From NCBI RefSeq assembly GCF_030378205.1, contig NZ_CP127385.1:4008001-4072000 (forward strand): a DNA stretch of 64,000 nt, in the 5' to 3' direction. A model generated the notes under the pieces. That model searched no databases. It saw only the letters and a list, made by a program, of their open reading frames with translations, and had not been told where the DNA came from. This document shows, piece by piece, positions 17,459 through 26,650 of the stretch. Position numbers and translations under genes: made by a program. The stretch's first letter is position 1. Each line of letters begins with the position of its first letter. This stretch comes from Bradyrhizobium sp. NP1 (GTDB lineage: Bacteria > Pseudomonadota > Alphaproteobacteria > Rhizobiales > Xanthobacteraceae).

Positions 17459-18067
17459 ATGGCTCGAAAACCGAATCCTGCGCCCCCGCTGGGCAAGCCC
17501 CTGAAACGCGCCTTCTTCGGCCGCAGCGTGCATGAGGTCGCCCCCGACCTGATCGGCGCCACGTTGCTGGTGAACGGCGTCGGCGGCCTCATCGTAGAGG
17601 TGGAGGCCTATCACCACACCGAACCCGCCGCGCATTCCTACCGCGGGCCGACGCCGCGCAACCTGGTGATGTTCGGTCCGCCGGGCTTTGCCTATGTCTA
17701 CCGCTCCTACGGCATCCACTGGTGCGTGAACTTCGTCTGCGAGGAAGAGGGCTCGGCGAGCGCCGTGCTGATCCGCGCGCTGGAGCCGACCCATGGACTG
17801 GCTTCGATGCGGCGACGGCGCGGCGTCACCGAGGCGCGGATGCTGTGCTCGGGCCCCGGCAAATTGTGCGAGGCGCTCGGCATCACCATTGCGCATAGCG
17901 GCCTGCCGCTCGACCGACCGCCGATCGCGCTGTTCGCCCGCACGTCGAAGGTGGAGATCGCTGCCGGCGTGCGGATCGGCCTCACCAAGGCGGTGGAACT
18001 GCCCTGGCGCTACGGTCTCAAGGGCTCGAAATTCCTCAGCAAGCCGTTTCCGGCCGGTCGCGGCTAG
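17459..18067 (+). CDS. DNA-3-methyladenine glycosylase (AAG/MPG family)
   Basis: This base-excision repair enzyme removes alkylated purines. It has 202 residues from the ATG at 17459; an in-frame ATG at 17408 would add 17 weakly supported residues. MPG-family motifs: [21 protein letters not shown] with the catalytic Glu, [26 protein letters not shown] and [14 protein letters not shown]. The stop codon TAG (18065-18067) is part of the CTAGTGG end of the palindromic repeat that begins here. The protein ends at the usual length, so the repeat inserted at or beside the original stop. Confidence 0.92.
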
Positions 18068-18231
18068 TGGTCCGATTCTAGCGCTCGCATCCCGTTTTCC
18101 CAGAATGTTCTTGCGGACGCTAGAATCGAAGGACAAACAGCAAATATGGGCTTCCGGTGGAGTTCTGAATTTGACACTCGCTTTGCGGACCCACGGTCAG
18201 ATGGGTAGCGAATGTCAAATCCACTCGGTTA
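18064..18231. repeat. Long copy of CTAG-bounded double-hairpin repeat (mpg / dehydrogenase gap)
   Basis: About 168 bp holding two adjacent imperfect hairpins. The first pairs GTCC.ATTCTAGCG with CGCTAGAATC..GGAC. The second pairs TTTGACAcTCGCT with AGCGAATGTCAAA and has GTGGA/TCCAC flanks. Its left end (CTAG) provides the stop of the glycosylase gene and its right end overlaps the TAA of the dehydrogenase gene at 18229. It fills the whole convergent gap. A closely similar element lies at 30889-31052. Confidence 0.85.
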
Positions 18232-19227
18232 GTATTCGCGGCGCACGTCGACGAGATTGAGCAGCCTGCGATCTGCCAGCGTTCTCGATGCGTTTTCCAG
18301 CACGAGGTCCAGCGTCATCGGAAGATACTCCGTGAGGTCATCAGACGAGCAATGCGGCGTGATTAGCAGATTTGGCGTCTTCCACAGCGACGAGCTTCGC
18401 GGCAGCGGCTCGGGATCGAAAACGTCCAGCACGGCGCCGCCGAGTCGCCCCTTCCGCAGGTGCTTCTCAAGCGCACCATAGTCGACGACCTGCGCCCGCG
18501 CGAAATTCAGGAAGCCTGCCGTCTTTTTCATTAGCGCAAACTCGCTCGCACCGATCATCCCATCCGTTGCCGAGGTCGACGGCACCGCGACAACTACGAA
18601 GTCGGCGCGCGGCAAGCATTCGTGCAGCCGTTGCGGACCAACCACCTCATCGCAATACCGGTGCGGCTTCGCGCCGCGGCGGATTCCGATCACATGGAGG
18701 CCGACCCGCTTGGCCTCGCGCGCCCCCGCCCCTCCGAGATGGCCTGCACCGATAACGAGCAGCGTCTTGCCCTTGAGCTGGGTCGTGAAAAGCGGAAGCC
18801 ATTCCCGGCGCGCCTGCGCGTTCATCAGGGCCGGTATCCGATTGTTGAGCATCAGGATACACATCAGAATGTACTCGCCAGCCTTCTGGCGATGAATTCC
18901 CTTGTTGTTGGTGATCGCGATATCCTTCGGCAGCCAGTCGAAAGGCCGCAGATATTCGATACCCGCTCCAATCAAATGAATGGAGCGCAGATTCGGCGCC
19001 ATATCGCGTAGGTTCCTGCGCGGGACCTGCTGGGACGTCACGAACATCGACGCCGTCTTCAGCATCGCCGGAGCGTTGTCGAGGTCCCATCCGACGCTTG
19101 TGCGAATCCGGCTTGAGAGGTCCTTTCGCCGAAGCAGCGCGGCCTTGATGATATCCGGCGTCATGTGGAACACCGGATGAGCCTCGCGGCGCGAGTTGAA
19201 GTGTATGTGGAATTTTTCGTTCTTCAT
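18229..19227 (-). CDS. D-2-hydroxyacid dehydrogenase / ketoacid reductase, paralogue 1
   Basis: 332 residues from the ATG at 19227, five bases after the ABC ATPase stop. This is a D-isomer-specific 2-hydroxyacid dehydrogenase. It has a Rossmann GAGHLGG loop (160-166), an Arg in NFARAQVVDYGAL, a Glu in DVFDPEPLP and a His in ITPH, the catalytic Arg-Glu-His triad of the family. The end of the second Rossmann strand reads IGIRR (Arg183-Arg184) rather than an acidic residue, which suggests NADP(H). It is about the same length as the gene at 23.1 kb, and both end VDVxREY. It is the last gene of the transporter operon. Substrate unknown. Confidence 0.85.
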   Translation of the reverse strand: MKNEKFHIHFNSRREAHPVFHMTPDIIKAALLRRKDLSSRIRTSVGWDLDNAPAMLKTASMFVTSQQVPRRNLRDMAPNLRSIHLIGAGIEYLRPFDWLPKDIAITNNKGIHRQKAGEYILMCILMLNNRIPALMNAQARREWLPLFTTQLKGKTLLVIGAGHLGGAGAREAKRVGLHVIGIRRGAKPHRYCDEVVGPQRLHECLPRADFVVVAVPSTSATDGMIGASEFALMKKTAGFLNFARAQVVDYGALEKHLRKGRLGGAVLDVFDPEPLPRSSSLWKTPNLLITPHCSSDDLTEYLPMTLDLVLENASRTLADRRLLNLVDVRREY

Positions 19228-19232
19228 GATGT

Positions 19233-20345
19233 TCAGGGCTGCCCGTCGGGTTGATCGGCATAAGCGAGCACGTCGCGCGGTTCGATATTGATGAACACCC
19301 CGCCGCCGACTTCGAGCTGCGCGAACTCGCGCTCGTCGGCGAGATGTGCGGTCCACGATGTGCCGTCGTTCAGGCGAAGACCGACTTCGATATATCGGCC
19401 GAGATAGGTCTTCGAGGTCACCGTAGCGCCAAGCGATTGACCTGCATCCTGTCCTCCCGCCGTCAACGCGACCCGTTCCGGCCGCGTGAAGATCGTCACG
19501 CGCTCGCCGACGCCGATCGATTGCACCGGCGCGCGAGATCGAACGAGGCCGACCGCCGGGATCTCCAGCACCAGCGTCTGGGCGTCACGTTCCCGGCAAA
19601 TCGCCGTTACCGAATTCGTGACGCCGACGAACTTTGCCACGAATGGACTGGCGGGCTGTCGATAGATATCTTCGGGCTTGCCGAACTGAAGCAGGGAGCC
19701 TTTCGACATCAGCGCCAGGCGGTCGGCGAGCCCGAGTGCTTCGTCCTGATCATGCGTCACGAAGATCGTCGTTACGCCGGTGAGCCGCTGAATCCGTTTC
19801 AGCTCGATCCGCATTTCCTCACGCAGCTTCTTATCGAGTGCACTGAGCGGTTCGTCGAGCAGCAGGACCGTCGGCTTGATCACGAGCGATCGAGCGAGCG
19901 CAACGCGTTGTTGTTGGCCACCAGACAACTGGCGGGCCATGCGTCCGCTAAACCCATCGAGGTCGACCAGCGCGAGGGCCTCCGATACCCGCCGCTCGAT
20001 CTCGGCGCGGTCGACATGCCGCATCTTGAGGCCGAAACCGACATTTTCTCCGACCGTCATATGTGGAAACAGCGCATAGTCCTGAAAAACCATACCGATG
20101 TTGCGGCGGTGCGGCGGTACGTCCGTCATGCGCCGCGAACCGATATGGATATCGCCCGAGTGTGATACGAAGCCAGCCACGCTGCGCAGAAGCGTGCTCT
20201 TGCCGCAGCCCGACGGCCCGAGCAGCGCGAGAATCTCCCCGGCCGGCAAATCCAGATTCAGTCGATCGACCGCGACGAGATCGCGATATCGCACGCTCAC
20301 GTCGTCGAGCCGAACCGATTCCGATTGAAGCATCGAGATACTCAT
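19233..20345 (-). CDS. ABC transporter ATP-binding protein, PotA/FbpC type
   Basis: 370 residues from the ATG at 20345, which overlaps the preceding permease stop by ATGA. Walker A GPSGCGKS (43-50), Q-loop FQDYALFPH, signature LSGGQQQR, Walker B VLLLDEPLSALD and the switch His in FVTHDQDEA are all intact. The C-terminal 120 residues form a TOBE-type regulatory domain, as in polyamine, iron and thiamine importers (PotA/FbpC/ThiQ group). It energises the two permeases encoded immediately upstream. Confidence 0.93.
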   Translation of the reverse strand: MSISMLQSESVRLDDVSVRYRDLVAVDRLNLDLPAGEILALLGPSGCGKSTLLRSVAGFVSHSGDIHIGSRRMTDVPPHRRNIGMVFQDYALFPHMTVGENVGFGLKMRHVDRAEIERRVSEALALVDLDGFSGRMARQLSGGQQQRVALARSLVIKPTVLLLDEPLSALDKKLREEMRIELKRIQRLTGVTTIFVTHDQDEALGLADRLALMSKGSLLQFGKPEDIYRQPASPFVAKFVGVTNSVTAICRERDAQTLVLEIPAVGLVRSRAPVQSIGVGERVTIFTRPERVALTAGGQDAGQSLGATVTSKTYLGRYIEVGLRLNDGTSWTAHLADEREFAQLEVGGGVFINIEPRDVLAYADQPDGQP

Positions 20346-21124
20346 CCCGTGACCATTTCCAGACCGGCCCACCGCTCGATCGCGAGTACCACCACTGTCG
20401 TCAGAGCAATGAGCATCGCCGAAATCGCGCAAACAGTCGGATCGGTTTCAAGCATCGCGTAGGAATAGATTTCGACAGGCAGCGTCGTCCGGTCCCATAC
20501 GAGAAACTGCGTCGCGGTGAAGTTGTCGAACGACGTCACGAAAGCGAAGATCGCGGCCGCGACCATCGCCGGCTTGACGCAGGGTATGGTGACGCGGACG
20601 AAGGCGGTAACGGGATGCGCACCGTGAATGATGGCTGCATCCTCCAGCGATTGCGGAAATCGAAGGAGCGACGCGCTCAGGACCTTCACCGTGTAGGGCA
20701 GCGTCAGGATCAAATGCAGGATGCCGAGGCCCAGGAAGGAGCTCGCCAGCCCCGCATTTGCAAGCAGAACCAGGAGCGCCATGCCCATGACGACCTGCGG
20801 CACGATCAACGGGGAGTTAATCAGCGCAGCGACCAGTTCCCTTCCGGGAAACCGATGCCGCATCAACGCTACCGAGCACATCAAGCCGATGATCAGCGAC
20901 AATGCCGTTGAAATCGCCGCAAGCACGAGGCTGAACTGGAGACTGTGGAGAAAACGTTCGCGCTGGAATGCATTCGCATACCACCGCAACGAGAACCCAT
21001 GCGGGGGAACTGCGATCTCCGTGCCGTCATTGAAAGACGAGACAACCACGACGGCAAGCGGCACTGCCATGCATATCACGCCGACGGCGGTCAGAAACCA
21101 CGCGAACCATCCGGGCCGATTCAT
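20342..21124 (-). CDS. ABC transporter permease, PotC type
   Basis: 260 residues with about six hydrophobic segments, the first at 7-30. The EAA-like motif is DAAIIHGAHPVTAFVRVTIP, the contact site for the ATPase. It matches the second permease (PotC-like) of spermidine/putrescine-type importers. Overlaps both neighbours by 4 nt. Confidence 0.92.
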   Translation of the reverse strand: MNRPGWFAWFLTAVGVICMAVPLAVVVVSSFNDGTEIAVPPHGFSLRWYANAFQRERFLHSLQFSLVLAAISTALSLIIGLMCSVALMRHRFPGRELVAALINSPLIVPQVVMGMALLVLLANAGLASSFLGLGILHLILTLPYTVKVLSASLLRFPQSLEDAAIIHGAHPVTAFVRVTIPCVKPAMVAAAIFAFVTSFDNFTATQFLVWDRTTLPVEIYSYAMLETDPTVCAISAMLIALTTVVVLAIERWAGLEMVTG

Positions 21125-21969
21125 GTCCTAAGCCCCCGGAGCTGGGAACTCAGCCGCTGAATCACGATCAGCGTGAGCAGCGCGATCACCAGCAGAACGA
21201 CCGACATCGCCGCGGCAAACGGCGTATCCAGCACCGCCATCGCCTGCTCCTGAATGATATTCGCAATCATGTTGAAATAGCCGCCGCCCATCATGCCCGG
21301 CATGATGTAGGCGGTCAGGTCGAACAGGAAAACGAGCACGATTCCGGCAAGGACGCCTGGAAGGCTCAACGGAAGCGTCACGTGGACAAACGTTCGCAGA
21401 CGGCTTGCCCCGAGCGAAGCGGCAGCAGCTTCCAGGTTGCGCTCAAGGTTTTTCAGTACGCTATAGATGGGAAAGATCATGAACGGCAGCGGCACCAGGA
21501 TCAGACCGATCGCGACGCCCGCCTCGTGGAACAGCAGTGAAACCGGCCGCTCGATCAGCCCAAGCTGAAGCAGCGCGCGATTGATGATGCCATTGTTGCC
21601 CAGCACCAGGATCAGCGCGTAGGTGCGCACGATGTAGCTGGTGAAGAACTGCACCACGAGAAGTAGCGTCAGCGTCAGCCGAACAGCCTGCCCCGACCGC
21701 GCCATCACATAGGCGAAGGGATAGCCGAGCAACAGCGTAATCGGCGTGCAGTACGCCGCGACCCTGAACGACCGCCACATGAAGCCGAGATAGAACGGGT
21801 CGGAGAGGAAACGTCTGTATTGCGCGAGGCTGACGTTCCCCTCCGGGTCGTGCAGGCTTATGAGGCCCGCAACGACCAGTGCAGCGAGAAAGATACCGAT
21901 CAGCAGCGCGCCGGGCGCGAGCAGGACAAAGATCGCTCCATTCTTCCGCAGCGTCGCATCCGGTTGCAT
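21121..21969 (-). CDS. ABC transporter permease, PotB type
   Basis: 282 residues with six predicted membrane spans and an EAA loop AAAASLGASRLRTFVHVTLP. It is the first permease of the importer, PotB-like. The region between spans 1 and 2 (about 35-70) is a short periplasmic loop containing DPEGNVSLAQYRRFL. The gap to the binding-protein gene is 55 nt. Both permeases being present favours import of one small charged solute. Confidence 0.92.
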   Translation of the reverse strand: MQPDATLRKNGAIFVLLAPGALLIGIFLAALVVAGLISLHDPEGNVSLAQYRRFLSDPFYLGFMWRSFRVAAYCTPITLLLGYPFAYVMARSGQAVRLTLTLLLVVQFFTSYIVRTYALILVLGNNGIINRALLQLGLIERPVSLLFHEAGVAIGLILVPLPFMIFPIYSVLKNLERNLEAAAASLGASRLRTFVHVTLPLSLPGVLAGIVLVFLFDLTAYIMPGMMGGGYFNMIANIIQEQAMAVLDTPFAAAMSVVLLVIALLTLIVIQRLSSQLRGLRT

Positions 21970-22024
21970 CGACGACCATCACCTATCGCGTGGAGACCAA
22001 GAGGCGGAACGCGCACACCTGCCC

Positions 22025-23038
22025 TTATCTGGTCAGGATTTCGCGATTCCAGCGCTCCACCCAAGCGCCATAGTGGGCATTCACATAGTCCCAATCAGGC
22101 GTAAACAGATCGCCCAATGGCGGGATGACATCCCGAATGCTGGACGGTGCCTTCGCATTCCTGTTCGATGGGATCGAGCCAAGCTGCTCGACGATGCGCT
22201 CCTGAATGCCCGGATCGAGGATCGCATTGAGCACCTTCGCCGCCTCCGCCTCGTTGGGCCGGCCCTTCAGCATCGTGATAACGTTGACCGACAGAAATTG
22301 AGGCTTGGCCGGCATCACAAACCGGTAGTTTGAACCGGGCCCCAGCAACTTGTAGACCACCCCGAGAACGCCGTAGCCCGCGACATTGGCTTCGCCAGCC
22401 TGAACGAGCTTGAGCGCCTCGGCATCCGCCTTGTAGATGACGCCGAGATTGGCTTTGAGCGCCTTCAGTTTCTCAAAACCAGGGTCGATGTTCTTTTCAT
22501 TTCCGCCGGCGAGCAACGCGGCGATCATGATGAACATGCCTTTGTCCTGATCGATCGATGTCGTTATCATCCCTTTCAACCGAGGATCCCAAAGATCCTC
22601 CCAGGTCTTGATCTCGAAAGGCGTCCGGTCGGCGCGATAGAAAATTCCGCGCGGCGATGACCACATGGTCGGCCCGCTCGGAAAGATCAGCTGCTCGGGA
22701 ATGTCCTTCAAGTTCGGAACGAGATCGGCCGGAACGGGCCGGATGACGCCGCTCGCCAGCGCTTTTGCGGCGGTCGCGTCAGCCGTCATCCAGAGGTCGA
22801 CCTGCGGATTGGCCTTCTGCGCCTCAAGGCGCTGCAGGCCGGCCACCGAGCTTGCCTGAGTGACGAACTCGATCTTCGTACCGGTCGCCTTTTCCAGGTC
22901 GGGCTTGACGCTGTTCATCGCGTCGATGAACGCGCCGGCCCACGTCTGAATGACGATGGTTTTCTGAGCGAACGCTGGCGACAAGAGCACGACCTGCAAT
23001 GCGACTGCACAAAAGCAGGATCTCAATATCCACCTCAT
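22025..23038 (-). CDS. ABC transporter periplasmic binding protein (PotD/AfuA-like)
   Basis: 337 residues from the ATG at 23038; an in-frame GTG at 23047 would add three residues. Signal peptide 1-25 (MRWILRSCFCAVALQVVLLS, ending at AFAQ). The mature protein has the two-lobed type-2 periplasmic binding fold: VIQTWAGAFIDAMNSVKPDLE, then KIEFVTQ, then WSSPRGIFYRAD and the C-terminal domain-closing helix. It is in the solute-binding group that serves polyamines, ferric iron and phosphonates. The residues expected for a ferric site (paired Tyr) are not apparent, so an organic cation or amino-acid-like ligand is more likely. Confidence 0.88.
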   Translation of the reverse strand: MRWILRSCFCAVALQVVLLSPAFAQKTIVIQTWAGAFIDAMNSVKPDLEKATGTKIEFVTQASSVAGLQRLEAQKANPQVDLWMTADATAAKALASGVIRPVPADLVPNLKDIPEQLIFPSGPTMWSSPRGIFYRADRTPFEIKTWEDLWDPRLKGMITTSIDQDKGMFIMIAALLAGGNEKNIDPGFEKLKALKANLGVIYKADAEALKLVQAGEANVAGYGVLGVVYKLLGPGSNYRFVMPAKPQFLSVNVITMLKGRPNEAEAAKVLNAILDPGIQERIVEQLGSIPSNRNAKAPSSIRDVIPPLGDLFTPDWDYVNAHYGAWVERWNREILTR

Positions 23039-23102
23039 CGTGACCACCCCCCTCGTTGCTACGATCGGTCCGATCGCAAGTCACCCTGTCATCCGCATCG
23101 CC

Positions 23103-24134
23103 TCAATACTCGCGACTGACATCGACCACGTTGGTCAACGGCTCCCCCGCCAGATGTCGCCTAACATTATTGAAGAAGATGTCCAGCGTCCGCGGGACAT
23201 ATTGATCCAGGTCGTCCGAGAGCACATGCGGCGTTATCAGAAGGTTCGGCGCATCCCACAGGCTCGCATCGGCCGGCAACGGCTCGGGATAGGTGACGTC
23301 GATGATCGCGCAACCGATCTGATCGGTTCGCAGCGCCTCCTCGAGCGCCTTGGGATCGACCAGCCCGCCCCGCGACATGTTGATGAAGGCGGCACCGCGC
23401 TTCATGCGCCTGAATTCCTCGCGCGCCATGATGAAGCGAGTCGTGGACGTCAACGAGATGTTGACCAGGACGATGTCTGCGCGCGGCAAGAGCTCGTGCA
23501 GGGCGCCCGGCCCGTGCATCTCGCTCACCGCCGGATGCGGTTCCTTGCTTCTCCTGATACCGATAACGCGCATGCCGAGCTTCTTGGCCTGCTCGGCCGC
23601 TCCTCCGCCGATGTGGCCGACGCCAACGATCAGGAGCGTCTTGCCCTCCACCGTGGGCGTAAAGATGCGATTCCACTCCTTGCGGCGCTGGGCGGTTATC
23701 AGCTTGGGTATCTGTGCGTTGGCCATCAATATGGCCATCAGCGCGGACTGGGAAGCCTTCGGAACATGCGCCCCGCAGTTCGTGGTGAGTGTAAGCCCCT
23801 TTGGCACCCAATCGAACGGCAGCATGTAGTCCACGCCCGCACCGAGCACCTGCACGAGCTTCAGTCGTGGCGCCTTCTCGGCAAGGCGGTCGCGAGGAAA
23901 CCGATACCCGATCATGGCGTCGGCATTCCCGATCGCCCGATCGAAAACATCGCCGTCGATGCCCCAGCTCGTTTCGGTAATCTTCGCAATATCGGGAAAC
24001 CGCTGCAACGCCTCCTCGTATTGCTTCGGATAAACCGTAAATACCGGCATCAGCCTGGTTTCGTTCTCGATATGGATACGAAACGGCTTCTCTTTCGAGA
24101 ATAAAGGTCTGTCCGTTGCGGGGAAGCTGCCCAT
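23103..24134 (-). CDS. D-2-hydroxyacid dehydrogenase / ketoacid reductase, paralogue 2
   Basis: 343 residues from the ATG at 24134, directly adjacent to the ureohydrolase stop (no spacer). Rossmann loop GVGHIGG (171-177), catalytic Arg in NMSRGGLVDPKAL, Glu in DVTYPEPLP and His in LITPH are all present. As in paralogue 1, the cofactor position reads IGIRR (Arg194-Arg195), pointing to NADP(H). The two share the landmarks PFDW(L/V)PK, EW, LLITPH and VDV.REY, so they are related copies within one operon rather than two unrelated recruits. Probably reduces a 2-keto acid made during catabolism of the imported compound; the substrate is not identifiable. Confidence 0.85.
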   Translation of the reverse strand: MGSFPATDRPLFSKEKPFRIHIENETRLMPVFTVYPKQYEEALQRFPDIAKITETSWGIDGDVFDRAIGNADAMIGYRFPRDRLAEKAPRLKLVQVLGAGVDYMLPFDWVPKGLTLTTNCGAHVPKASQSALMAILMANAQIPKLITAQRRKEWNRIFTPTVEGKTLLIVGVGHIGGGAAEQAKKLGMRVIGIRRSKEPHPAVSEMHGPGALHELLPRADIVLVNISLTSTTRFIMAREEFRRMKRGAAFINMSRGGLVDPKALEEALRTDQIGCAIIDVTYPEPLPADASLWDAPNLLITPHVLSDDLDQYVPRTLDIFFNNVRRHLAGEPLTNVVDVSREY

Positions 24135-25112
24135 CTAGCCGGAACCTCGCTTGATCCGCTCGTGGAAAATATAGCCGAGAAAATCCATCAGAACGCGCGC
24201 GGCAAGAAAAGCCGTCGTTCCCGTATGGTCATAGTCGGGCGCAACCTCGACCAAGTCGACACCTACGACGTCACCCAGTCTTGCCAGACCTTTCAGCAGG
24301 TCGATCACCTCGTAGTACTGGAAACCGCCATGGCTCGGCGTTCCGGTACCGGGCGCAATCGACGGATCAAAGCCGTCAATATCGATCGTCACATAGTAGC
24401 GCGGAGCCTTGGGGATCTCGTTCAGCGTCGCTTCGGTGCCGAGCCGTCGGATCTGCCGCACGGACAGGATTTTCGAGCCGAGCGCCCGTGCCGCATCGTA
24501 GTCGCCCCTGTTCGAGGACGACACGCCTCGAATGCCGAGATGGGTGATGCCGCGCACGTGCTTCATCTCGGATGCGCGCCGCAGCGGATTGCCGTGGCCG
24601 TAGCGGACGCCATGCCGCTCGTCGACGAAATCGAGGTGCGCGTCGAAATGCACGATATGTACAGGGGGCTGTTCGTCGAACGCCTTGATGCAAGCGGCAT
24701 GCACGGCGTGGTCGCCTCCCAGCGAAACCGGCAACGCGCCGGCCTTCAGGATGGCGCGCACCGCCGTCTCGGCGTTGGCGAGGCTTTTCAGCGTATCGGT
24801 GTGCACGATGTCGGCGTCACCGATATCGACGATCCTCACCTTGTCGCGCGGCAGGTAGACGACGTCGTCCTCGTGGTCGTAACCACCGCTATGCCCGAAA
24901 GAGAACAGCGTCGAGGCCTCGCGGATCGCCCGCGGTCCGAAGCGCGCACCGGCACGGTATTGGGTGCCCATGTCAAAGGGAATGCCGAGAATCGCAACGT
25001 CGGCGTCGATCGCGTTCCAATCGAGACAGACCGGCTGCTTCCCGAAGGTGGCGTGACCCACAAAGGGCAGATTGAGCCGCCCGCTCTCGTAGCCATGTGA
25101 TTCGTTCGTCAT
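24135..25112 (-). CDS. Agmatinase/guanidino-acid ureohydrolase family protein
   Basis: Ureohydrolases use two Mn ions to cleave a guanidino group and release urea. The metal ligand motifs are intact: SLGGDHAVH, HFDAHLDFVD and ITIDIDGFDPSIAPGTGTPSHGG. It is 325 aa from the ATG at 25112; starts at 25133 and 25166 are also open and none has a good ribosome-binding site. Length and the GTGTPSHGG loop fit the agmatinase/guanidinobutyrase/proclavaminate amidinohydrolase group rather than arginase. It is first in the operon with the importer and two dehydrogenases, and faces the LysR gene. Substrate: an amidino or guanidino compound; the exact one cannot be read from sequence. Confidence 0.88.
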   Translation of the reverse strand: MTNESHGYESGRLNLPFVGHATFGKQPVCLDWNAIDADVAILGIPFDMGTQYRAGARFGPRAIREASTLFSFGHSGGYDHEDDVVYLPRDKVRIVDIGDADIVHTDTLKSLANAETAVRAILKAGALPVSLGGDHAVHAACIKAFDEQPPVHIVHFDAHLDFVDERHGVRYGHGNPLRRASEMKHVRGITHLGIRGVSSSNRGDYDAARALGSKILSVRQIRRLGTEATLNEIPKAPRYYVTIDIDGFDPSIAPGTGTPSHGGFQYYEVIDLLKGLARLGDVVGVDLVEVAPDYDHTGTTAFLAARVLMDFLGYIFHERIKRGSG

Positions 25113-25178
25113 CTCCAAGCGGCCCCCGAACATCCGCTTGGCAAACCTAGGCCGCGGCCATATCATCGGTAAATATCG

Positions 25179-25217
25179 ATGTTATGAACCTTATATCAGT
25201 ATTTTTCTATGTTATGA
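25179..25217. promoter_or_regulatory. Candidate LysR operator: two ATGTTATGA direct repeats
   Basis: The 9-mer ATGTTATGA occurs at 25179-25187 and 25209-25217, 30 bp apart, in an AT-rich island in the divergent promoter region between the LysR gene and the catabolic operon. Spacing is about three helical turns, which suits a LysR tetramer, although LysR sites are more often T-N11-A dyads. Predicted only. Confidence 0.4.
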
Positions 25218-25226
25218 GATCGACCC

Positions 25227-26141
25227 GTGATCCCGCCGAAGCTCACAAATTCGGACATCAGCCTGCTCCGCGTGTTCGTTGCGGTGGTCCACAGCGGAGG
25301 CTTCTCGGCGGCGCGAACCGAACTAAACGTCAGCCAGCCAACGATCAGCATGAAGGTATCCGACCTCGAGGCTCGGCTTGGCATGCGTCTTTGCGAGCGT
25401 GGACGCGGCGGCTTCAAGCTGACGGCGGAGGGACAACGGGTTTACGAAGCTTCGCTCAACCTGTTTCAATCGCTCGAGACATTTCGCGCGGAGATCGGCT
25501 CCGTCCGCGGTCGCATCGTCGGCGATCTCCATATCGGCATCGCCGATGCAACGATTACCAATACCGGCCTGAAACTGGATCAGGCCATCGAACGGTTCAA
25601 AAGAAAGGCGCCGGACGTTCACATCCATATGCACGTGGCTTCTGCGCTCGAACTTGAACTCGGGCTGGTCGAGGACAGGTTGCATGTGGTGATCGGACCG
25701 CTGCAGCGTCGGCGCCCCGAACTGGTCTACGCGCCGGTACTGGTCGAAGAACAGGCTCTGTATTGTGGGCGCAACCACCCCCTGTTCGAGCGAGCGCCGG
25801 ACCGCATCGAGCCGTCTGAACTTAACAACATCGAATTTGTCCGACGCGGATATCTGACGCGCTGGCAGGCGCCACTCGGCGTGGAATTCAGGGCGACGGC
25901 GACCACCCTTCACATGGAAGCAACGACGCGCCTCGTTCTCAGCGGCACGCATATCGGATACCTGCCGACCCATCATGCAAGCTTCTGGGTGAAGCGCGGC
26001 GAACTGAAGCCTATCCTGCCAGCACTGTTGTCCTACGATTCCCCGTTTCTGCTGGCGACGCGACGCTCTCCGGCCAGCAGCGCGTTGCGGCGCTTTCTGG
26101 GGGATTTCCGCAGCGTCCAGCGGCATCCGCCGCCGAGTTGA
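25227..26141 (+). CDS. LysR-family transcriptional regulator of the catabolic cluster
   Basis: 304 residues. Start is the GTG at 25227 because an in-frame stop (TGA at 25215) leaves no earlier choice. The N-terminal winged helix-turn-helix (about 8-65) shows FVAVVHSGGFSAARTELNVS followed by QPTISMKVSDLEARLGM. The rest is the two-lobed inducer-binding domain. It is divergent from the ureohydrolase operon and 59 nt ahead of the Rid gene, so it likely senses the imported compound or its intermediate. The inducer is unknown. Confidence 0.93.
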   Translation: MIPPKLTNSDISLLRVFVAVVHSGGFSAARTELNVSQPTISMKVSDLEARLGMRLCERGRGGFKLTAEGQRVYEASLNLFQSLETFRAEIGSVRGRIVGDLHIGIADATITNTGLKLDQAIERFKRKAPDVHIHMHVASALELELGLVEDRLHVVIGPLQRRRPELVYAPVLVEEQALYCGRNHPLFERAPDRIEPSELNNIEFVRRGYLTRWQAPLGVEFRATATTLHMEATTRLVLSGTHIGYLPTHHASFWVKRGELKPILPALLSYDSPFLLATRRSPASSALRRFLGDFRSVQRHPPPS

Positions 26142-26200
26142 TGCCTGACGCTGACCACAAGAGCTAGTCTGGACACTGCAAAAATCTGCGGAGAGAAGCG

Positions 26201-26614
26201 ATGGGTGAAACGAAAGCGAAAAGACGGCGGGTGATCGTGCCGGGCGTCAATGAACCGGGCAGCGGATTGTCGTCAAATTGCTTCGTGGTCGGCGATCTCG
26301 TCATCATCACCGGGTTGACAGCGCGGACAGATGACGGACAACCGGCAGCTTTGGGGGATGCCCGCCAGCAAGCGGTCATCGTGTTGGAGCGGATGAAGGC
26401 ATTGATGCGCGCGGCCGGCGGCACGATGGGCGACATCATCAAGCTCAATTGCTATCTGACGGACATCCGTCATCGTGACGGCTTCGTCTCGGCGCGCCGC
26501 GAGTTCTTCGTCGGTGATTTTCCGCCCTGCGTTGTTCTGGGCGGCGTTGTCTTCACCGCGCCCGAACTGCTGATCGAGGTCGACGCCTGGGCCGTCCTCA
26601 ATTCCGCTCCGTGA
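26201..26614 (+). CDS. RidA/YjgF-family protein lacking the canonical catalytic arginine
   Basis: 137 residues with the Rid trimer fold: GLTARTDDGQ, QAVIVLERMKALMRAAGGTMGDIIKLNCYLTD, and IEVDAWA at the end. RidA hydrolyses reactive enamines and imines made by PLP or flavin enzymes using an Arg (Arg105 in E. coli) in an R.CVEV motif. Here the matching stretch reads FPPCVVLGG, so both that Arg and the following Glu are missing. This places it in one of the non-RidA subfamilies. Co-orientation with the LysR gene suggests a role in the same pathway, perhaps handling an imine intermediate by another mechanism. Confidence 0.85.
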   Translation: MGETKAKRRRVIVPGVNEPGSGLSSNCFVVGDLVIITGLTARTDDGQPAALGDARQQAVIVLERMKALMRAAGGTMGDIIKLNCYLTDIRHRDGFVSARREFFVGDFPPCVVLGGVVFTAPELLIEVDAWAVLNSAP

Positions 26615-26650
26615 CGGAATGCGAAGAGACCTGCCACGGTTCACGCCGTT

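Follow-up and report, generated by a model that had tools for sequence, protein, structure and literature searches.

We analysed a window of 64,000 nucleotides from Bradyrhizobium sp. NP1 (contig NZ_CP127385.1, positions 4,008,001 to 4,072,000 of the forward strand). Nine genes at positions 18229-26614 of this window form a compact block, with seven genes on the minus strand and two facing them on the plus strand (Table 1). Their positions match the open reading frame (ORF) list, and profile searches confirmed their families, in agreement with the original prediction of seven packed minus-strand genes facing a LysR gene and a Rid-like gene. The minus-strand genes are transcribed in the order UreH (a ureohydrolase), DH1 (a D-2-hydroxyacid dehydrogenase), the binding protein, permease 1, permease 2 and ATPase of an ATP-binding cassette (ABC) importer, and DH2 (a second dehydrogenase). 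The predicted three overlapping or zero-spacer junctions and one of 5 nt measure 0 nt (UreH to DH1), -4 nt (permease 1 to permease 2), -4 nt (permease 2 to ATPase) and +5 nt (ATPase to DH2). Looser junctions flank the binding protein, with 64 nt between it and DH1 (ATG at 23038) and 55 nt between it and permease 1. A UreH start near 25112 is likely a better choice than that of the longest ORF; relatives open with M...GYESGRLNLPF. From the translations, a start near 23038 is likewise probably preferable for the binding protein. Sigma-70-like promoters (3 versus 2.6 in shuffles) and terminators (6 versus 7.3) occur in the block at chance level, and a search of the block for tandem repeats found none.

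Table 1. Coordinates of the nine-gene block and its parts within the window
Feature	Position	Strand	Remarks
Whole inserted block, nine genes	18049..26646	.	Absent from same-genus region L172; low GC
DH2, second D-2-hydroxyacid dehydrogenase	18229..19227	-	PF02826; longest ORF from 19356
ABC ATPase, ABC_tran + TOBE_2	19233..20345	-	PotA-like, narrowly under cut-off; longest ORF starts at 20432
ABC permease 2, BPD_transp_1	20342..21124	-	PotC-like, below cut-off
ABC permease 1, BPD_transp_1	21121..21969	-	PotB-like, below cut-off
Periplasmic binding protein, SBP_bac_8	22025..23038	-	Pfam; longest ORF from 23047
DH1, D-2-hydroxyacid dehydrogenase	23103..24134	-	PF02826
UreH, ureohydrolase of uncharacterised clade	24135..25112	-	PF00491; predicted urea release from guanidino acid; longest ORF start 25166
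Divergent promoter region, 114 bp	25113..25226	.	23-nt direct repeat and candidate LysR site
LysR regulator, divergent from UreH	25227..26141	+	PF00126/PF03466
Rid-like protein, Ribonuc_L-PSP	26201..26614	+	PF01042; alternative start 26231

The GC content of the block is 0.605, compared to 0.652 and 0.654 on its two flanks. GC content at third codon positions (GC3) is 0.72-0.79 in the block genes, compared to 0.845-0.896 for lipA and the genes for a DNA glycosylase, a glyoxalase-type protein and valS; a neighbouring methyltransferase gene is also low, at 0.77. These flanking genes carry the names that we presume from reading their translations. For a same-genus comparison we used the flanking methyltransferase, which is found in 13 of 60 genomes, our own included; six regions were fetched (regions from other genomes are given L numbers here) and three of them retain both flanks. 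L172 lacks positions 18049-26646 altogether. The alignment stops at window position 18048 (L172 5933) and restarts at 26647 (L172 5939), which leaves 5 bp between the flank alignments and 8598 bp missing as a unit. In L175 the calls for the two flanking genes are adjacent, and ~1.1 kb separates the aligned ends. L173 stops at a contig end, and the methyltransferase is located elsewhere in L176 and L177. Because all nine genes lie in a low-GC block that is cleanly absent from L172, they arrived as a unit. They have been transferred jointly on at least one occasion, which is evidence for a shared role but no proof of it. In L174, three different gene calls fill the site between the two flanking genes, which may mark it as a hot spot for insertions.

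UreH matches the arginase family (PF00491, E 8.7e-82), with the ureohydrolase fold and the ligands of a dinuclear metal site (GGDH, DAHxD and DxD). Its relatives number at least 576 among the matches listed and span alpha-, beta- and gammaproteobacteria; 80 loci were kept. In an alignment of 90 clade members, window UreH included, the metal ligands D141, H142, H166, D168, D251 and D253 are fixed in all 90 and D164 in 89, R173, H174 and H268 are likewise found in all 90, and the active-site loop is nearly fixed. R173 aligns with Met161 of GbuA and Tyr157 of GpuA from Pseudomonas aeruginosa, which are the substrate-recognition residues according to the accessible part of PMC10833137. Since all 90 clade members have Arg here, UreH falls outside both the GbuA group (Met) and the GpuA group (Tyr). 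It has the same fold and metal-ligand motifs as these two enzymes, but is only 32% and 37% identical to them by structure alignment and has TPSHGG where they have TPEIGG. We take GbuA and GpuA to be guanidino-acid hydrolases that each have their own regulator nearby, an arrangement resembling the LysR–UreH pair. From its sequence, UreH is best placed in an uncharacterised branch of the arginase/agmatinase family that occurs widely and in which the invariant Arg/His pair (R173/H174) would bind a nearby carboxylate. Both the existence of this distinct, widespread clade and the insertion of the block as a unit were missed by the original prediction.

Databases name UreH an agmatinase, and the block would then simply serve uptake and breakdown of agmatine or polyamines. 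UreH does pass the TIGR01230 agmatinase model (187.3 bits, cut-off 174.3), in the listed plasmid records every relative whose match falls on an annotated gene bears the label speB, agmatinase, and the importer is Pot-like. However, TIGR01230 is not substrate-specific, because UreH paralogs in L063 and L140 pass it (203.8 and 212.6 bits) although a paralog of the same kind in L127 is closest to guanidinopropionase (407.3 bits). The nearest structure to UreH, the Deinococcus radiodurans “agmatinase” 1wog, has Asn at the place of His180 and, as far as the accessible part of PMC8125230 goes, received that name without kinetic characterisation. With R173/H174 in place of Met/Tyr at the substrate-reading position and a PotD score of 26.9 bits against a cut-off of 582, we consider the agmatinase explanation quite unlikely.

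LysR hits were counted in the fetched loci at a coverage of at least 60% of the query. Of 36 matches to the window LysR, 29 score 120-230 bits and the remaining 7 score at most 56. All 29 strong relatives (at least 120 bits) lie within seven genes of a UreH gene, and 28 lie within five. This closeness is partly built in, because most loci were chosen around UreH, but the score gap is not. The divergent promoter region contains a 23-nt direct repeat (25165-25187 and 25195-25217, 78% match, spacing 30 nt) and an ACATC-GATA element. The pattern of this element is found in 16 of the 21 LysR–UreH intergenic slices compared, 60-64 nt into the slice in 14 of the 16, and is absent from those of L041, L088, L143, L149 and L150. 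Its mean count in 500 mononucleotide shuffles is 0.16 with a maximum of 2, a figure that overstates the strength of the pattern, since it was composed post hoc and includes a branch made specially for the window sequence.

Neighbours of UreH were counted in the 75 of 80 loci in which the UreH gene could be anchored; the other five were left out. Gene calls came from a codon-score caller, a longest-ORF caller having been dropped after many of its ORFs were judged spurious antisense. The references were drawn from the same loci with an identity floor of 35%, and many loci are closely related. Within four genes of UreH we find LysR in 17 loci, aldehyde dehydrogenase (ALDH) in 15, a choline-dehydrogenase-like GMC enzyme in 15, an NCS1 permease in 14, the polysaccharide-deacetylase family in 12, ABC parts in 9, OHCU/M20 in 5 and short-chain dehydrogenase/reductase (SDR) in 2, with creatininase, a second ureohydrolase and M24 in 1 each. 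At the same distance and identity there are no genes of the DH1/DH2 type and no Rid, Rieske or UAAP/DUF1989 genes in any of the 75 loci. The background 6-12 genes from UreH (55 loci) holds LysR in 1, ALDH in 1, ABC parts in 6 and none of the rest. Judged by this difference, LysR, ALDH, GMC, NCS1 and deacetylase genes cluster around UreH. Other reference sets or closer inspection add further cases: in L032 a Rid gene immediately precedes UreH, in L129 the second gene from UreH has 30% identity to DH1, in L068 and L099 UreH is flanked by Pot-type ABC genes and an M24-family gene, and L085 and L037 also have Pot-type ABC genes near UreH. Among the plasmid loci, the Rhizobium leguminosarum UreH gene follows an amino-acid-type ABC importer and that of Mesorhizobium ciceri accompanies a urea-carboxylase-associated protein; in Roseovarius, Shinella and Gemmobacter the neighbours of UreH are a polysaccharide deacetylase gene and two SDR genes. 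The LysR–UreH core is thus joined to varied importers and oxidoreductases. The exact set of genes is not found elsewhere in the 75 loci. Measured against the co-conservation that the original prediction named as its own point of refutation, the pairing of UreH with LysR is kept and that with these dehydrogenases is not.

Some of the neighbours point to a substrate. Six loci, of which five come from the family of the window's genome, have a creatininase gene at a distance of two genes from UreH, and the one tested (L131) is an equivalog of TIGR04448 (359.9 bits, cut-off 235). This links the clade to creatinine/creatine degradation, although the window block itself contains neither creatininase nor M24-family creatinase. 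In six Pseudomonas loci the LysR–UreH pair borders glyA and a TyrR-like regulator gene two genes away; in the locus tested (L094) this regulator scores 442.9 bits, under the TyrR cut-off of 576. Five of the six also have gcvH (3 genes away) and lipA (5-6 genes). Altogether glyA is within seven genes of UreH in 7 loci, and in Shinella glyA and a folD-type gene lie seven and eight genes upstream of UreH. In L046 and L051, UreH is found by an S-formylglutathione hydrolase (tested in L046) and a gene that reads as alcohol-dehydrogenase-like; together the two would be a formaldehyde route. A D-amino-acid-dehydrogenase (DadA) gene adjoins lysR in Caballeronia/Paraburkholderia loci L061 (728.4 bits, cut-off 494), L070 and L091 (the latter two by similarity), and the GMC enzyme adjoining UreH in Pseudomonas L093 is a choline-dehydrogenase equivalog (776.3 bits, cut-off 732.1). 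References for glycine, one-carbon, DadA or creatininase genes occur within five genes in 18 of 90 UreH loci. The glycine genes and creatininase are suggestive of N-substituted glycines as substrates, with guanidinoacetate or creatine converted to glycine or sarcosine and urea; this trail counts as no more than suggestive, given that all six Pseudomonas loci belong to a single lineage. In L127, L130, L131, L134, L129 and L063, a second ureohydrolase (35-38% identical to UreH) is directly beside the UreH-clade and creatininase genes, and the paired enzymes possibly form a heteromer.

Other neighbours belong to ureide (allantoin) catabolism. UreH could act there, for example in a non-orthologous hydrolysis of allantoate to ureidoglycolate and urea, with the NADP-type dehydrogenases oxidizing ureidoglycolate or reducing glyoxylate. 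In L042 (10010-14969), UreH stands in a row with an NCS1 permease, a PuuE-UraD fusion and ureidoglycolate lyase, the latter two over cut-off; the best model for the permease is allantoin permease (270.7 bits, under the cut-off of 620). The same row is found by similarity in L044 (200-4934). Allantoicase was not found in the genome of L042 or L044, but these assemblies are 2.2-2.3 Mb and may be incomplete. PuuE, OHCU/M20 and M20 genes adjoin UreH in the Comamonadaceae-type loci L066, L074, L079 and L081 (L079 tested), yet an allantoate-amidohydrolase-like M20 domain is already part of the Comamonas cluster. Ureidoglycolate lyase is present in 29 of 42 genomes (those of 42 of the 80 loci), or 30 of 43 counting the window's genome. 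Against this, allantoicase also occurs in 12 of the 42 UreH-bearing genomes, for which reason we retain the replacement of allantoicase by UreH as no more than an alternative, and 63 of the 75 anchored loci have no polysaccharide-deacetylase (PuuE-type) reference gene within four genes of UreH. A ureide role of UreH therefore seems improbable to us.

The importer was described in the original prediction as polyamine-type. This holds at the superfamily level, since it belongs to the same ABC superfamily branch as PotABCD, but not at the family level, where every subunit is below the cut-off of its curated model (PotA 348.5 of 355.6 bits, PotB 190.6 of 348, PotC 132.2 of 326, PotD 26.9 of 582). 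Orthologs of the binding protein at E <= 1e-40 are nearly lacking: 3 of 397 genomes in the order, our own included, with the best other at 34%, only our own of 398 genomes in the phylum, and none on plasmids. Its ligand can therefore not be read from close genomic context. Matches in the PDB are to mannopine-binding (48.3 bits), Fe(3+)-binding (45.7 bits) and aminoethylphosphonate-binding (41.9 bits) proteins, so that iron may still be compatible with the sequence as a ligand. The nearest relatives (33% and 31%, in L167 and L168) are encoded alongside Rid and FAD-dependent (DAO) oxidoreductases, a context that weakly fits an amino-acid-like ligand. In L167 (2292-12817), the importer relative is beside genes for Rid, an FAD-dependent oxidoreductase, a 4-hydroxyphenylacetate-hydroxylase-type protein and an amidase-like protein.

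DH1 and DH2 are 45% identical to each other and score 159.7 and 154.6 bits with PF02826. Inspection of the alignment by eye finds Arg, Glu and His residues, to which we assign the catalytic roles by assumption, in both enzymes; a loss of the Glu from DH1 was considered and ruled out, as its motif DVTYPEP holds the residue. At 1e-60, 14 of 391 genomes of the family have a match to DH1, our own included, and relatives at 66% and 64% occur in two of them; at the phylum level, a search at 1e-70 returned our own genome only (1 of 398). Both close relatives (L119 and L120) adjoin genes for a Rieske oxygenase, a triple-Rid-domain protein, a 227-aa protein and a flavin/ferredoxin reductase, named by Pfam in L119, where the 227-aa gene is GntR, and by similarity in L120. 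The Rieske oxygenase, the DH1 relative, the three-Rid-domain protein and the regulator-sized gene stand in a row with the ferredoxin-type reductase next to them (L119 6438-11681, L120 7359-11597), which looks like an oxidative pathway. In L122, L123, L124 and L135, DH2-like genes (48-49%) accompany DUF1989 and an ABC importer of amino-acid type; the L122 cluster was tested and the others were named by similarity, and the first three also have an amidohydrolase. Further DH2-like genes occur with UAAP1, UAAP2 and an amidase in Paraburkholderia (L148) and with a Rieske oxygenase and RidA in Roseovarius (L147). L121, L125 and L126 have Rieske genes, and L136 lacks all of these partners. The dehydrogenase type thus appears to recur where small nitrogen compounds are broken down, three times together with Rid. 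UAAP1/UAAP2 and DUF1989 are presumably linked to guanidine carboxylase/carboxyguanidine deiminase systems, whose amino-acid-type ABC importer and LysR resemble those of the block. Unlike these systems, however, the window block contains neither DUF1989 nor a carboxylase. The Rid-like protein itself matches PF01042 but is under the TIGR00004 cut-off (34.9 versus 106.25 bits).

These contexts raise the question of whether the block is composite, with the LysR–UreH pair and the importer, dehydrogenase and Rid set serving two substrates and merely co-located. The DH1 relatives in Rieske oxygenase/Rid clusters and the distant binding-protein relatives with Rid and FAD-dependent oxidoreductase genes all lie apart from UreH, and no pairing of UreH with a dehydrogenase of at least 35% identity was found in the 75 loci. 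Yet UreH and DH1 are joined without a single intervening nucleotide, and the nine genes were inserted as one unit of even GC3. On balance, such a composite islet is unlikely.

We favour, at roughly even odds, a reading of the block as a LysR-controlled islet, gained by horizontal transfer, for the catabolism of a small guanidino acid. Judging from its family, the ABC importer would take the compound in. UreH, with its fold and metal ligands, would then cleave the guanidino group to give urea and an amine. The likeliest substrate would be a short N-amidino amino acid, because the Arg/His pair is read as holding a nearby carboxylate; guanidinoacetate would give glycine and urea, and creatine would give sarcosine and urea. 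The urea could be used by host ureases, as the genome has two urease alpha genes over cut-off; it also has one GcvP (glycine decarboxylase) gene. In what are the weakest steps of the scheme, Rid would convert the imine formed by amino-acid oxidation to a 2-oxo acid such as glyoxylate or hydroxypyruvate, which DH1 and DH2 would reduce to a hydroxy acid. LysR would detect the substrate or product and switch the divergent promoter, as the conserved pairing and shared promoter element suggest. The roles of the dehydrogenases and importer rest on linkage in this one genome, because the exact gene set was found nowhere else. The original proposal that a guanidino compound is imported and broken down with release of urea is thus still the best reading of a block that travels as one; the predicted substrate can be sharpened to a small guanidino acid and, with less confidence, to guanidinoacetate or creatine. 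Among the neighbours of UreH, creatininase, some ABC importers and the one urea-carboxylase-associated protein lend it support.

Several observations weigh against this interpretation. Close to UreH, ABC parts show no clear enrichment (9 of 75 loci, compared to 6 of 55 farther off), 37 of the 75 loci have no reference-set partner within four genes, and outside the window none has a dehydrogenase at least 35% identical to DH1 or DH2 at that distance. Nothing in the block encodes an amino-acid oxidase or a transaminase that could supply Rid and the dehydrogenases. The glycine link comes from six closely related Pseudomonas loci and one Shinella, which amount to some two independent cases, a single family accounts for five of the six creatininase loci, and UreH occurs with allantoin genes instead in the Comamonadaceae-type loci and two Hyphomicrobiales metagenome-assembled genomes. 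The ALDH beside UreH in L093 scores best with phenylacetaldehyde dehydrogenase (590.9 bits, cut-off 850) and next with betaine-aldehyde dehydrogenase (503.6 bits, cut-off 668.6), and reaches neither cut-off. Finally, a positively charged pocket is no proof of activity on guanidinoacetate or creatine, because a human guanidino-acid hydrolase that requires a negatively charged head group rejects both, according to the accessible part of PMC9772407.

A wider proposal is more tentative. The UreH clade may be the long-missing sequence family of bacterial guanidinoacetase or of a ureohydrolase-type creatine hydrolase, a module with interchangeable importers and oxidoreductases. If so, the window could, with similar reserve, represent a new plug-in that adds two 2-hydroxyacid dehydrogenases and Rid to the LysR–UreH module. 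To our knowledge, guanidinoacetase (EC 3.5.3.2) has no sequence-assigned reference enzyme. A literature search that excluded most subscription journals found neither a guanidinoacetase with an assigned sequence nor any mention of this set of genes, and the novelty is accordingly provisional. If the clade does act on a guanidino acid, the common speB/agmatinase annotation would be wrong across alpha-, beta- and gammaproteobacteria, and a gene could be assigned to guanidinoacetase, an enzyme activity described long ago. The conserved LysR–UreH pair with its swapped importers and oxidoreductases would be a handle on the guanidine nitrogen sources of soil and marine bacteria.

Ureohydrolase genes also occur in other arrangements. 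L084 (10031-13070) has three in tandem, one of the UreH clade and two ~34% identical to UreH. The window's own genome has a second ureohydrolase cluster at ~2.0 Mb (L169, 5542-11125), where the enzyme is 36% identical to UreH and the neighbours are, by similarity, LysR-, amino-acid-type ABC- and M20-like genes.

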